Source: Acidimicrobiaceae bacterium (GTDB lineage: Bacteria > Actinomycetota > Acidimicrobiia > Acidimicrobiales > Aldehydirespiratoraceae). From it: a stretch of 64,000 nucleotides of DNA. A program made the position numbers and the translations under genes. Of the stretch, positions 1,195 through 9,780 are shown piece by piece. The stretch spans positions 1 to 64,000 of the forward strand of contig VXTM01000031.1 in assembly GCA_009837445.1 (NCBI GenBank), given 5' to 3'. The notes below the pieces were generated by a model that saw only the letters and a program-made list of their open reading frames with translations, had not been told where the DNA came from and did not search any database. The stretch's first letter is position 1. Each line of letters begins with the position of its first letter.

Positions 1195-3240
1195 ATGACC
1201 GCAACTCCCCAGATCGTGCTTCGCATTGCCTTAGCCCTCGCGGCGTCCTTCCTTGTTGCTTGCTCGGGTAGTCAGAGTACTGATGCCGCGTTCACAGGCG
1301 ATGGCCTGACGGTTGGCGATGAAGCGGTCGGTGAGGTCGCACCGTCCGAGGATGTCGAGCCGTCCGAGGATGCTGGTCCGTCCGAGGATGCCCCTGTCGC
1401 CGAGGATTCGGCCGAAGATGTTGCTCCGGCTGAGGAGGTCGAGCCGGCTGAAGATGTTGCTCCGGCTGAGGAGGTCGAGCCGTCCGAAGATGTTGCTCCG
1501 TCCGAAGACGATGACCCCGCCCCTCTCGTGGACCCCTTGACGGTGGAACGCCTCATGAGGAACGCGGAGCGGTTCGAGTACACGATCGGCACGCCCGGCG
1601 GCGCGCTCACCATCACGACCATCTCCGACCCGCTCACCTTCAACCTGGCAGTCTCCAACGACGCGTCATCGTCGGGCGTGCTCGGATACCTGTTCGAGGG
1701 CCTCACCGAGACCTCGTGGCTGAACGATGAGGTGGAGCCGGCGCTGGCCGAGGCCTGGGAGCACTCCGACGACGGCCTGACATGGACGTTCCACCTGCGC
1801 CGCGACGTCGCCTGGCACGACGGCCAGCCCTTCACCGCCGCCGATGTGGACTTCACGTTCAACCGGATCATCTACAACGACGAGATACCCGCCAGCAGCC
1901 GTTCAGCGTTCGAGTTCCGGTACCTCGACGACAGCGGCGAATGGCAGGTGGACCAGATGGACGTGGCCGTGATCGACGACCACACCGTCGAGTTCACCCT
2001 GCCGGTGCCCTTCGCCCCCTTCCTGCGTTCGATGGGCACGGCCATCTACCCGCGCCACATCCTCGAGCCCCACGTCGACGACGGCTCCTTCGTCGACACC
2101 TGGGGCATCGACACCGATCCGGCCGAGATCATCGGCACCGGTCCTTTCACCATCGCCAGCTACGAGCCGGGCGAGCGAGTCGTGATGGCCCGCAACCCCG
2201 ACTACTGGCTGACCGACGAGGCCGGCAACCGCCTGCCGTACCTCGACCGGATCGTCCACGACATCGTCGAGGACCTGGAAGCCGAACTCGAGGGCTTCAT
2301 TGCGGGCGAGTCGGACGTCCATGGGCTGCTGGGCGAGGAGTACTACCAACTCGAGCCCCTGCAGGAGCGGGACAACTTCACCATCCACCGGCGCGGCCCG
2401 GCCTTCGGCACGACCTTCCTCTCGTTCAATGTCAATCCCGGTGTCAGCCCCGACACCGATCAGCCGTATGTCGATGCCCGCAAGCTGGACTGGTTCGGCA
2501 ACGTGGAGTTCCGCCGGGCAGTGGCCCACAGCGTCGACAGGGACGCGATCATCAACGGCGTGCAGTACGGCCTCGCCTACCCCCAGTGGTCCTCGATAAG
2601 CCCGGCGGCCGGCGCCTTCCACAACCCGGACGTCAGGACTTACCCCTACGACCTGGACAGGGCCAATGAGATCCTCGACAGCCTCGGCTGGACCGATACC
2701 GACGGTGACGGCATCCGCGAGGACTCCAACGGACATGCGATCGAGTTCAACCTGGTGACCAACACCGGGAACCTCGTGCGCCAGGAGGTCACTCAGATCA
2801 TCCAGCAGGGAATGGAGGCCATCGGGCTGGAGGTGGACTACCAGGCGATCGACTTCGGGGTGCTCGTCGGTCAGCTGACCAGCACCTACGACTGGGAGGC
2901 CATGGTCATCGGCTTCACCGGCGGCCCTGACCCCTACAGCGGGATCGGCTTCTGGCACAGCACGGCTGACCTGCACCTGTGGTATCCCAACCAGCCGGAG
3001 CCGGCCACCGACTGGGAGGCCCAGATAGACGAGCTGTACATCATGGGAAGCCGGGAGCTCGATCCCGAGGCGCGAGTGGAGCACTACTGGAGGGCCCAGG
3101 AGATCGCAGCCGAGAACGTGCCCGTCATCTACACGTCGCAGCCCGAGCGGCTTACCGCCGCACGCAACGTCTTCGGCAATGCTACGCCCACCCTGTACGC
3201 GCTCTGGGACACCCGCTACCTGTACCGGACCGACCAGTAG
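1195..3240 (+). CDS. ABC transporter substrate-binding lipoprotein, family 5 (peptide type)
   Basis: A 681-residue extracytoplasmic solute-binding protein of the SBP_bac_5 (DppA/OppA) family. The signal peptide ends in a lipobox with the lipidated Cys at residue 23 (LVAC). An unusual acidic linker (about residues 46-108) repeats PSED, PAED and PAEE units with V/E between them. The binding domain follows, with family segments such as TWTFHLRRDVAWHDGQPF and PFTAADVDFTFNRI. It probably binds peptides or similar solutes for import. No permease or ATPase genes are adjacent, so its transporter must be encoded elsewhere or it acts alone. The linker probably spans from membrane to domain. Confidence 0.88.
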   Translation: MTATPQIVLRIALALAASFLVACSGSQSTDAAFTGDGLTVGDEAVGEVAPSEDVEPSEDAGPSEDAPVAEDSAEDVAPAEEVEPAEDVAPAEEVEPSEDVAPSEDDDPAPLVDPLTVERLMRNAERFEYTIGTPGGALTITTISDPLTFNLAVSNDASSSGVLGYLFEGLTETSWLNDEVEPALAEAWEHSDDGLTWTFHLRRDVAWHDGQPFTAADVDFTFNRIIYNDEIPASSRSAFEFRYLDDSGEWQVDQMDVAVIDDHTVEFTLPVPFAPFLRSMGTAIYPRHILEPHVDDGSFVDTWGIDTDPAEIIGTGPFTIASYEPGERVVMARNPDYWLTDEAGNRLPYLDRIVHDIVEDLEAELEGFIAGESDVHGLLGEEYYQLEPLQERDNFTIHRRGPAFGTTFLSFNVNPGVSPDTDQPYVDARKLDWFGNVEFRRAVAHSVDRDAIINGVQYGLAYPQWSSISPAAGAFHNPDVRTYPYDLDRANEILDSLGWTDTDGDGIREDSNGHAIEFNLVTNTGNLVRQEVTQIIQQGMEAIGLEVDYQAIDFGVLVGQLTSTYDWEAMVIGFTGGPDPYSGIGFWHSTADLHLWYPNQPEPATDWEAQIDELYIMGSRELDPEARVEHYWRAQEIAAENVPVIYTSQPERLTAARNVFGNATPTLYALWDTRYLYRTDQ

Positions 3241-6237: not shown

Positions 6238-6243
6238 CCGGCC

Positions 6244-7869
6244 ATGAGCAGTCCCATCCTCGGCGCCCAGACCTTCTGGGAGCTGCTTGAGAGACGGGTG
6301 GCGGCCACACCCGACCGCATGATGCTGGTGGACGAGGCCGGCCGGGTCCTGACCTTCGCCGGATTCAAGGATCAGGCCGAGCGGGTGGCGGCGGGTCTGA
6401 TGGCCATGGGCGTCACGACGGGCACACCGGTGACGTGGGTGCTGCCCACCCGCATCGAGACGGTGCTGCTGAGCTTCGCCCTCAGCCGGCTCGGGGCGGT
6501 CCAGAACCCGATCATCCACATCTACCGCAAGCGGGAGGTCGAGTTCTGCGTCCGCCAGACCGGAGCGAAGCTCATCGTGCATCCCGGCGAGTGGGCAGGT
6601 TTCGACTACGGCGCCATGGTCGGCGAGATCGTCGCCCAACTCGACCACCCCTGCCAGACGCTGACCGGCTACGACACCCTGCCCGAGGGCGATCCCGCCA
6701 CCCTGCCTCCTCCCCCCGATGCCGGAGACGCCGGCAGCGTCCGCTGGCTGTACTACACCTCGGGGACCACCTCCGATCCCAAGGGCGTCAAACACACGGA
6801 CGGGTCGCTCATCGCCGGCGGGATAGGGCTGGCGCGGGCCCTCGACATGAGCGGCGACGACGTCGGGTCCATCGCCTTCCCCTACGCCCACATCGGTGGA
6901 CCCGACTACATCGTCACCATGCTCTCGTCCGGATTCGGCGCCGTGCTCGTCGAGCGCTTCGACCCGGCCGCCTCGGTCGCCACCTACGCCCGGCGCGGCG
7001 TGACCATGGCCGGCGGATCAACGGTCTTCTACCAGATGTTCCTGGAGGAGGACCGCAAGTCGCGCGAGGCCACCGGCCGCCCGGCCATGCCTGCACTGAG
7101 GGTGCTGTCGGGCGGCGGCGCCCCCAAGCCGCCGGAGATCTATTTCCAGGTCAAGGCGCAGATGGGCATTCCGGTGGCCCACGGCTACGGGATGACCGAG
7201 TGCCCGATGATCTCGCAGGGCTCGCCCCGCGACACCGACGACCAGCTCGCGCACACCGACGGCCGCCCGGTCCACGGCTGCGAGGTGTCGATCGTGGCGG
7301 TCGCCGCCGACGGCGGTGAGGCCCCGGCCCCGAGAGGTGTGCAGGGCGAGGTGCGGGTGCGGGGGCCGATGCTGTTCGCGGGCTACACCGACTCCAGCCT
7401 CGACGAGCAGGCCTTCGACACGCGGGGCCGATTCCGCACCGGCGACCTCGGAGTCCTTCGGCCCGACGGGCACCTGATCCTCACCGGGCGAGTGAAGGAC
7501 ATCATCATCCGCAAGGGCGAGAACATCTCGGCCAAGGAGATAGAGGACGTGCTCTACGCCCATGACAAGGTGGCGGCGGCCGCGGTGATCGGACTGTCCG
7601 ACCCCGAACGAGGCGAGAGGGTCTGCGCAGTGGTCGAGACCGCCCCCGGCTCCGAGGATCTGACCTTCGACGAGATGGTCGAGGCCTGCGTCGACGCCGG
7701 CCTGGCCCGCCAGAAGGTCCCTGAGCAGCTCGAGATACACCCCGCCCCACTGCCTCGCAACGCCACCCTCAAGATCCTCAAGCACAAGTTGCGAGAGATC
7801 TACGAGGCCAGACGACCGTTCAACTTGACCGCACGAGAGGTCTACGTAGCCCGACAGGAAGATGACTGA
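6244..7869 (+). CDS. AMP-dependent acyl-CoA synthetase / ligase
   Basis: A 541-residue ANL-superfamily enzyme that activates a carboxylic acid to its adenylate and then to the CoA thioester. The AMP-binding P-loop YTSGTTSDPKG is at residues 171-181, YGMTE at 315-319, and the TGD and hinge region FRTGDLG at about 398-404. GRVKDIIIRKGENISAKEIE follows, and a C-terminal RNATLKILK carries the likely catalytic Lys. The sequence is closest in feel to medium-chain or cyclohexanecarboxylate-type ligases, and the substrate is unknown. The start at 6244 fits the family N-terminus. The ArsC-like gene begins 11 bp after its stop. Confidence 0.88.
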   Translation: MSSPILGAQTFWELLERRVAATPDRMMLVDEAGRVLTFAGFKDQAERVAAGLMAMGVTTGTPVTWVLPTRIETVLLSFALSRLGAVQNPIIHIYRKREVEFCVRQTGAKLIVHPGEWAGFDYGAMVGEIVAQLDHPCQTLTGYDTLPEGDPATLPPPPDAGDAGSVRWLYYTSGTTSDPKGVKHTDGSLIAGGIGLARALDMSGDDVGSIAFPYAHIGGPDYIVTMLSSGFGAVLVERFDPAASVATYARRGVTMAGGSTVFYQMFLEEDRKSREATGRPAMPALRVLSGGGAPKPPEIYFQVKAQMGIPVAHGYGMTECPMISQGSPRDTDDQLAHTDGRPVHGCEVSIVAVAADGGEAPAPRGVQGEVRVRGPMLFAGYTDSSLDEQAFDTRGRFRTGDLGVLRPDGHLILTGRVKDIIIRKGENISAKEIEDVLYAHDKVAAAAVIGLSDPERGERVCAVVETAPGSEDLTFDEMVEACVDAGLARQKVPEQLEIHPAPLPRNATLKILKHKLREIYEARRPFNLTAREVYVARQEDD

Positions 7870-7880
7870 AGGCAACACCC

Positions 7881-8255
7881 ATGGCTGAAATCACCATCTA
7901 TCACAACAAGCATTGAAATTCCTCCAAGAACGCCGTGGCGGTCGCCACGGACGCAGGTGCCGACGTCGACGTGGTGCTCTACATGTCCGAGCGCCCCGAC
8001 CGTGACACCCTCACCGGGATCATTGAACGGCTCGAGGACCCGGTGGAGAACCTGGTTCGCAAGGACTCGCAGTTCTCCAAGCTCGGGCTCGATCCCGATG
8101 ACTACGTCGGGAACGCCGACGCGGTGGTGGACGTGTTGCTGAGGTATCCGAGGCTCATGCAGCGCCCGGTGCTGGTGCGAGGCGATCGGGCCATCATCGG
8201 GCGACCCCTCGGCGAGGCCAAGGCCAAGGACCGCTTGGCCGATTTCCTCTCCTGA
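7881..8255 (+). CDS. ArsC-like thioredoxin-fold reductase with in-frame UGA: probable selenoprotein
   Basis: The reading frame from ATG 7881 (SD-like GAAGG at 7868-7872) is MAEITIYHNKH, then TGA at 7914-7916, then NSSKNAV and on to a stop at 8255, 124 residues in all. ArsC-family proteins begin IYHNP-x-C-S-x-S, so the UGA falls exactly on the catalytic Cys, giving IYHNKHUNSSKNAV. The rest (VRKD, PRLMQRPVLVRGDRAIIGRP) matches the ArsC/Spx fold, including the RP motif. A hairpin with a GGUC loop begins 16 nt after the UGA, as in bacterial SECIS elements. Starting at the in-frame GTG at 7935 would lose the first beta strand and the active site, so I reject that start. The likely role is a thiol/selenol oxidoreductase. 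Arsenate as substrate is unproven, as no ars genes are near. Confidence 0.85.
7933..7950 (+). promoter_or_regulatory. bacterial SECIS-like hairpin
   Basis: CCGTGGC (7933-7939), loop GGTC (7940-7943), GCCACGG (7944-7950): a perfect 7-bp stem. The apical GGUC recalls the SelB-binding loop of the E. coli fdhF SECIS. The stem begins 16 nt after the UGA and the loop 23 nt after it, within the spacing known for bacterial SECIS elements. Confidence 0.8.
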
Positions 8256-8327
8256 TCCCCCCGGCACCGGCTCGGTTCGCTACCGTGGGCGCCGGACACT
8301 CACTCAAGCCGACCCAAGGGAGAGCCG

Positions 8328-8522
8328 ATGCGCATCGTGGTGGACTTCGACCTGTGCGAGAGCAACGCCGTCTGCATGCAGATCGCGCCCGACATCTTCG
8401 AGGTGCGAGACGACGACTTCCTATACATCCTCAACGAGACGCCCGGCGAGGCCGACCGATCCCGCGTGGAGGAGTGCGTGCAACGCTGCCCGAAGCAAGC
8501 CATCTCCATCGCCGAGGACTGA
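8328..8522 (+). CDS. 3Fe-4S-type ferredoxin
   Basis: A 64-residue ferredoxin. Cys10, Cys16 and Cys54 (CESNAVC ... RCP) form the three-Cys pattern of actinobacterial 3Fe-4S ferredoxins. Asn13 replaces the fourth ligand of 4Fe-4S types, and Cys50 is an extra Cys. Such ferredoxins pass electrons to cytochrome P450s or Rieske oxygenases. A Shine-Dalgarno (AAGGGAGA) precedes the ATG, and TACCGT at 8281-8286 may be its -10. The next gene is its likely reductase. Confidence 0.87.
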   Translation: MRIVVDFDLCESNAVCMQIAPDIFEVRDDDFLYILNETPGEADRSRVEECVQRCPKQAISIAED

Positions 8523-8577: not shown

Positions 8578-9780
8578 ATGACCTCCATCCCGCGCGCCGT
8601 AACCATCGTCGGGGCCTCGCTGGCCGGATTCAACGCCGCCGAGGCTCTGCGCCGCGACGGCTTCGAGGGTCCGGTCACCCTGATAGGCGCCGAGGACCAC
8701 CCGCCCTATGATCGGCCCCCGCTCTCCAAGCAGGTGCTGGCCGGAGACTGGGAGCCGGATCGGGCTGCACTCACCGACACCGAGGAGCTGGCCGACGACG
8801 GGATCGAGGCCCGCTTCGGTCTGCGGGCCACGGGATTGGACCTCAACGCCCGCGAGCTCACCCTCCACACCGGCGAGACCGTCGCGTTCGACGGGCTAGT
8901 TATCGCCACCGGGGCCCGCTGCCGCACGATGCCAGGCACCGACGAGCTCAGCGGCCTGCACGTGCTGCGGTCGCTGGACGACTGCCTCGCCCTGCGGGCC
9001 GATCTGGAAGCCGGGCCGCAGCGGGTGGTGGTGGTCGGTGCGGGATTCATCGGGGCCGAGGTGGCCGCCACCGCCCGGGGCCGCGGCCTGGAGGTGACGG
9101 TGGTTGAGGCGCTGCCCACCCCGCTGGGCCGGGTGCTCGGTGACGAGATGGGCAGCGTCTGCGCCGAGGTTCACCGCGACCACGGCGTCGACTTGCGCAC
9201 CGGCGTGGGGGTGGACCGGATCGAGGGCGACCACCGGGTGGAGCGGGTGGTGCTGTCGGACGGAGCGACCGTCGATGCCGATGTCGTGGTGGTCGGCATC
9301 GGCGTGATCCCCAACACCGAGTGGCTCGAAGGCTCCGGCGTCGAGATCGACGACGGCGTGATCTGCGACGCCTCGTGCCTGGTGGCCGACCGGGTGACTG
9401 CGGCGGGTGATGTGGCCCGCTGGCCCAACCAGCTCTTCGGCGAGACCATGCGGGTCGAGCACTGGGACAACGCCGCGGCCCAGGGCGCCCACGCAGCCCG
9501 GCGGCTGCTCGACGACGAGATCGGGCCGTTCGCGCCGGTGCCCTGGTTCTGGAGCGACCAGTACGACCGCAAGATCCAGCTGGCCGGCCGGGTGCGGCCC
9601 GACGACGAGGTCCGGGTGGTGAACGGCTCCGTCGAGGAGCGACGCTTCGCGGCGATCTACGGGCGCGGCGGCCGCATCACCGGCGTGCTCGGATTCAACC
9701 GGCCCCGCCACGTGATGCGCTACCGGGCCCTGATCGAGCAGGGCGCCAGCTTCGACGAGGCCCTCGCCGCCGAGTTCTGA
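8578..9780 (+). CDS. NAD(P)H:ferredoxin reductase, FAD-dependent (rhodocoxin/BphA4 type)
   Basis: A 400-residue flavoprotein. The FAD-binding GASLAGFNAAEAL lies near the N-terminus, PYDRPPLSK is typical of oxygenase-coupled reductases, a second NAD-binding GAGFIGAEVAA is central, and AAGDVARWPN is the second FAD contact. It follows the ferredoxin by 55 bp, so the two form a ready electron-transfer pair. No P450 or oxygenase lies within the window to receive the electrons. The product is presumably cytoplasmic. Confidence 0.9.
   Translation: MTSIPRAVTIVGASLAGFNAAEALRRDGFEGPVTLIGAEDHPPYDRPPLSKQVLAGDWEPDRAALTDTEELADDGIEARFGLRATGLDLNARELTLHTGETVAFDGLVIATGARCRTMPGTDELSGLHVLRSLDDCLALRADLEAGPQRVVVVGAGFIGAEVAATARGRGLEVTVVEALPTPLGRVLGDEMGSVCAEVHRDHGVDLRTGVGVDRIEGDHRVERVVLSDGATVDADVVVVGIGVIPNTEWLEGSGVEIDDGVICDASCLVADRVTAAGDVARWPNQLFGETMRVEHWDNAAAQGAHAARRLLDDEIGPFAPVPWFWSDQYDRKIQLAGRVRPDDEVRVVNGSVEERRFAAIYGRGGRITGVLGFNRPRHVMRYRALIEQGASFDEALAAEF

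Follow-up and report, generated by a model that had tools for sequence, protein, structure and literature searches.

A Probable Selenoprotein of the ArsC UxxS Family in an Acidimicrobiaceae Genome

Introduction

Arsenate reductases whose active-site motif UxxS begins with selenocysteine (Sec, U) were described from the Sargasso Sea, where 14 sequences were found, with hairpins that closely follow the UGA codon and have a guanosine in their apical loop (PMC1088965). The GOS paper counted 77 sequences of the same motif under the name "ArsC 1" (pfam03960; PMC2398784). Two reviews, from 2022 (PMC9312934) and 2026 (PMC13188914), also list arsenate reductase UxxS. The 2026 review names TIGR00014 as the model of the ArsC UxxS family and describes the functions of selenoproteins of this kind as largely uncharacterized (PMC13188914). 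This account is that of the available portions of the four papers.

The gene described here lies in the genome of an Acidimicrobiaceae bacterium, in a stretch of 64,000 nucleotides that was analyzed as a whole (the window; positions 1 to 64,000 of contig VXTM01000031.1, assembly GCA_009837445.1). Compared by description with the available accounts of the published ArsC UxxS selenoprotein, the window gene is alike in its ArsC family membership, its UxxS motif and a hairpin with an apical-loop G after the UGA codon. In the same accounts the published protein is known from metagenome counts and one example accession, and in this it differs from the window gene. The string "Acidimicrobi" has no occurrence in the 2022 and 2026 reviews (PMC9312934, PMC13188914) and "Actinobacteria" has none in the GOS paper (PMC2398784). 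No report of an Acidimicrobiia ArsC selenoprotein was found in the accessible parts of the literature on selenoproteins, ArsC/UxxS and Acidimicrobi. The present work adds the lineage, the occurrence of the gene as the sole PF03960 gene of a genome with no detected ArsB/Acr3 pump, a link with selA, and two placements of the hairpin.

Coding Sequence and Active Site

The ArsC-family gene occupies positions 7881..8255 of the window (+ strand) and would code for 124 residues including Sec12. Its frame starts with ATG 7881, carries an in-frame TGA as codon 12 (7914..7916, + strand) in the catalytic Cys column of ArsC, and ends with a second TGA (8253-8255). A sequence-only reading of this DNA had proposed the same start, TGA codon and ArsC-family frame to 8255, and all three were recovered here. 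The standard code either stops at codon 12 or begins at GTG 7935, an ORF from which the active site is lost, so that the enzyme is easily missed. The apparent stop inside this short reductase frame most likely encodes selenocysteine and, judging from the sequence, insertion of Sec into an ArsC-fold reductase is highly probable.

The active-site motif of the predicted protein is IYHNKHU-N-S-S, in which U-x-x-S is kept and Lys-His is found at the site of Pro-x in most relatives. Profile search gave 48.4 bits for PF03960 (cut-off 24), and genome-wide the window gene is the sole match to this family (assembly of 3.9 Mb in 52 contigs, 93.8% complete). The best NCBIfam match is TIGR00014 with 77.5 bits, below its cut-off of 106.05; TIGR01617 scored 40.1 bits, also below cut-off (75.05), and NF041106 is absent from the matches at E up to 1. 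NF041106 designates, in the available parts of the 2026 review (PMC13188914), the UxxC arsenate reductase-like selenoprotein, which is "Arsenate reductase 2" in those of the GOS paper (PMC2398784). That protein is ArsC-related and has Sec in its active-site motif as the window protein does, but the latter is UxxS. The window gene is accordingly placed, as a predicted selenoprotein, in the published ArsC UxxS family of the ArsC (arsenate reductase/Spx) superfamily.

The AlphaFold model, with Sec modelled as Cys, has a pLDDT of 91.6 and a pTM of 0.83, and its 11 best PDB matches are arsenate reductases. E. coli ArsC (R773-type, PDB 1i9d), which sits in an ars operon, has the same fold (TM 0.78 by query length) with 30% identity to the model in the structural alignment. 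The TGA codon aligns to its residue 12, which is Cys, not Sec. The Spx/MgsR regulators (3gfk, 1z3e) also share the fold, with 19-23% identity to the model. E. coli ArsC requires Cys12, R60, R94 and R107, according to the available part of PMC5155266. R60 and R94 align directly with the window protein, and its R108 was judged by eye to be the equivalent of R107 from the conserved GRP context.

The comparison was extended to 140 loci, composed of the best 80 of at least 520 relatives in a contig scan and of 60 stretches added from a search of the order (33 picked as having no internal stop, 27 with TGA). The codon is TGA in 107 loci and Cys (TGC or TGT) in 33, a ratio that is not a frequency because the Cys loci were chosen as stop-free. 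R60, R95, R108, D62 and P96 are present in all 107 Sec forms and all 33 Cys forms. Residues 13, 14 and 17 are N/G, S and N in most Sec forms versus S, T and H/Y in most Cys forms.

Gene Order and Possible Function

An AMP-binding acyl-CoA synthetase-like gene (6241..7869, + strand; PF00501 and PF13193; start codon assumed) ends 11 nt before the ATG of the ArsC-family gene. A small ferredoxin gene (8328..8522, + strand; Fer4_13 and related Pfam matches) and an FAD-dependent ferredoxin-reductase-like gene (8578..9780, + strand; Pyr_redox_2 and Reductase_C) follow downstream. The setting among CoA and ferredoxin genes, to which the sequence-only reading had drawn attention, recurs for its first part: the acyl-CoA synthetase is directly upstream in 25 of the 140 loci (13 nearest relatives and 12 others). 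The ferredoxin reductase does not share this wider distribution, being near the gene in 14 of the 140 loci, 13 of which are nearest relatives. A P-II gene (GlnB-like, named by eye) precedes the ArsC-family gene on the same strand in 31 of the 140 loci, all Sec and none Cys (e.g., L112, from -696 to -81 counted from the Sec codon). It is directly upstream in 11 loci, and the acyl-CoA synthetase adjoins the Sec gene in nine of the 31. A SerB-like gene lies near 13 of the 140 loci. No general neighbor of the ArsC-family gene emerged across the set. The recurring neighbors seem to point to a gene order inherited from a common ancestor in part of the family; neither the synthetase nor the ferredoxin reductase shows a function by its position, and the gene and the acyl-CoA synthetase may be functionally linked, although nothing in the gene order shows this.

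Elsewhere in the window, positions 1195-3240 code for a family 5 solute-binding protein, in which a stretch that resembles, by eye, a lipoprotein signal is followed by a long acidic EPSED/PAEEV repeat. The genome also has three MshC-like matches (C46:55365-56450, C26:149731-150867 and C26:148407-149579), all below the MshC cut-off, which may, we presume, be cysteinyl-tRNA synthetases.

Because position 12 and the three arginines are kept and the best matches of the model are arsenate reductases, sequence and model favor ArsC chemistry as the best-supported mechanism of the putative Sec enzyme. The selenol would replace the attacking Cys12 of glutaredoxin-type ArsC and act in a pocket with Arg60, Arg95 and Arg108 (R60, R94 and R107 in E. 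coli). Its target would most likely be arsenate or a similar oxyanion, and resolution may be provided by a small thiol or redoxin encoded away from the gene. That arsenate is the true substrate has, in our estimate, about an even chance.

A plain role in arsenic resistance appears weakened, because the genome has no match to ArsB (PF02040), Acr3 (TIGR00832) or the GlrX_actino mycoredoxin and because the window gene is its sole PF03960 match. The exporter search covered the ArsB and Acr3 families, in a genome of which about 6% may be missing from the assembly. With neither an exporter of these families nor an ars gene among the eight window neighbors scanned, the gene is not filed here as a resistance enzyme. 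Production of arsenite without an exporter would presumably be poor protection for the cell, and a role outside resistance is therefore a strong rival.

In such a role the protein would still be a selenoprotein, but its selenol would serve to reduce something else (peroxides, other oxyanions, or mixed disulfides between proteins and small thiols), with the ArsC oxyanion pocket kept. The missing exporter match and ars neighbors and the single PF03960 gene are in line with it, as are the recurring neighbors that were found (acyl-CoA synthetase and P-II genes) and the residues at 13, 14 and 17 that mostly differ between Sec and Cys forms. The invariance of Arg60, Arg95 and Arg108 in 107 of 107 Sec forms speaks for the opposite: two Pantoea ArsC-like proteins regarded as playing no part in arsenic resistance each lack one such arginine and were almost unexpressed, as reported in the available part of the source (PMC5155266). 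Weighing both sides, we hold the non-arsenate role as a tentative alternative with a little less than an even chance. ArsC chemistry remains the mechanism that the conserved residues and the model favor.

Conservation of the UGA Codon

TGA is found at the column in all 80 loci of the contig scan (the best 80 of at least 520 relatives). The nearest named ones among them, with identities of up to 98%, belong to Acidimicrobiia/Acidimicrobiaceae metagenome assemblies. No codon other than TGA, TGC and TGT occurs there in the 140 loci. Cys forms at the UGA column, which the sequence-only reading had suggested to look for in an alignment of homologues, thus exist in the 33 loci picked as stop-free. 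A nonsense mutation or sequencing error, giving a pseudogene or a truncated product from GTG 7935, would agree with the standard-code stop at codon 12 and the ORF downstream of it. It is rejected as extremely improbable: TGA recurs at the same codon in 107 of the 140 loci, from many different assemblies, the frame is conserved on both sides of it, and a start at GTG 7935 would drop the active site.

The search within the order gave a match in 248 of 397 genomes. selA is present in 111 of 115 TGA genomes versus 9 of 33 Cys genomes, a count that ignores kinship and rests on the 148 of the 248 matching genomes printed with a clear status. In roughly half of these 115 genomes (57 rows, made up of L020-L049 and the 27 added stretches, genome G139 accounting for two) the DNA itself was read to assign the TGA to codon 12, and the status of the remaining TGA genomes comes from the printed stop count. 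The four TGA genomes without selA are 73-83% complete. Nine genomes have selA and yet the Cys form of the ArsC-family gene (e.g., G019, G127, G153). A quick tree requires at least seven changes between Sec and Cys.

Outside the order, five matches with E no higher than 1e-15 came from a sample of 119 genomes taken from the phylum, and none of the five has an internal stop. In viral contigs, 63 pattern matches included no relative. Two Sec ArsC genes, L164 and L165, occur in genome G139. Two TGAs each were noted in G100 and G268; both loci were read on the sense strand (L044, L045), and the second TGA, at the gene end, was taken as the natural stop. Two loci named Akkermansiaceae and Verrucomicrobiales (L121 and L126) have a Sec gene with the GGUC hairpin at 58% identity, the motif IYHFNHU and a G+C content of 54-55% versus a median of 65%. 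Their Sec gene is possibly the result of transfer between phyla.

SECIS-Type Hairpins and Selenocysteine Machinery

A SECIS-type hairpin with a 7-bp stem and a GGUC loop is found at 7933..7950 (+ strand), starting 16 nt past the TGA, as had been described from the sequence alone. Its arms are 7933-7939 (CCGTGGC) and 7944-7950 (GCCACGG), and the loop is 7940-7943 (GGTC). The suggestion that such a hairpin would be conserved in Sec forms only holds at this place, since the GGTC loop occurs at the same offset in 89 of the 107 TGA genes versus none of the 33 Cys genes. All seven pairs form in 86 of the 89; seven pairs form in none of the 33 Cys genes and six pairs in four of them. The same 86 of 89 is the number of genes with a perfect 7-bp/4-nt hairpin at offset 19. 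At the 296 remaining offsets such a hairpin occurs in 0.125 genes on average, with 10 and 9 genes at the two highest. Any perfect hairpin of this geometry 3-29 nt from the codon start is found in only one of the 33 Cys genes. The paired cells number 620 out of 623 and fall to 181-441 when the 3' arm is slid.

Within the stem of these 89 genes, pair 23-32, made of synonymous third bases, is G-C in 78 genes, A-T in nine and G-T in two with no mismatch; pair 20-35 is C-G in 86, G-C in two and T-G in one. At pair 21-34, 55 genes have T-A and 31 have G-C, and a single gene is mismatched. A covariation test by independent pairs gave 3, 1 and 1 well-supported pairs, none discordant, which are too few for significance. 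Over the first 51 codons after Sec, the third-base entropy is 0-0.54 bits in the four measurable hairpin codons and 0.93-1.86 bits in the other fourfold codons measured. The third bases of the measured hairpin codons are nearly frozen and those of the others free to vary. The folding energy of the window hairpin gave no signal against shuffles (z = -0.26), Sec stretches fold no better than Cys ones (mean -16.1 for Sec, -17.5 for Cys, p = 0.068), and Rfam over positions 7800-8300 has no match near its gathering score.

A second type of hairpin, CAAUGC-CGUGC/A-GCAUUG, is perfect in 13 other genes of the 107 Sec loci (L164, L167, L169-L172, L175-L179, L182, L187) and in none of the 33 Cys genes. 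Because this type sits nearer the UGA codon in another part of the family, the placement of the SECIS element would have shifted within one gene family. Neither type is found in five of the 107 Sec genes (L163, L165, L166, L168, L185). In L165 a different stem carries a GGUC loop.

That this actinobacterium makes selenoproteins had been proposed from the gene itself, with a search of the genome for selA, selB, selC and selD as the check, and all four components are present above curated cut-offs. tRNA-Sec scores 68.3 bits (Rfam cut-off 47) and is also called tRNA-SeC by ARAGORN, with anticodon TCA; a second match on contig C21 reaches 48.5 bits, likewise above the Rfam cut-off. selB has 277.9 bits (cut-off 242.25), selA 370.9 bits (267.9) and selD 359.6 bits (125). 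On C21, the matches to selA and selB are separated by ~1.6 kb. The selD gene has its own in-frame TGA, in GAGUGCK, and the genome therefore has at least one other likely Sec gene. In the proposed mechanism, the GGUC hairpin that starts 16 nt past UGA codon 12 would guide SelB and Sec-tRNA(Sec) to decode it as selenocysteine. Read-through of UGA without Sec insertion, e.g., its reassignment to Trp, has nothing specific in its favor and is rejected as exceedingly unlikely: TGA is the normal stop of the same gene, the alternative at the column is Cys and never Trp in the 140 loci, and a tRNA-Sec with anticodon TCA is present.

Conclusions

A large Acidimicrobiia lineage may use a Sec enzyme of ArsC fold for a thiol/selenol redox task other than the detoxification of arsenic, and SECIS hairpins at two or more different placements may have arisen in one gene family, a combined reading that we advance with reserve and rate slightly below even. 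The 107 Sec and 33 Cys homologues form a natural series for asking why this lineage keeps selenium in the enzyme, and the hairpin family is usable for the study of SECIS placement.
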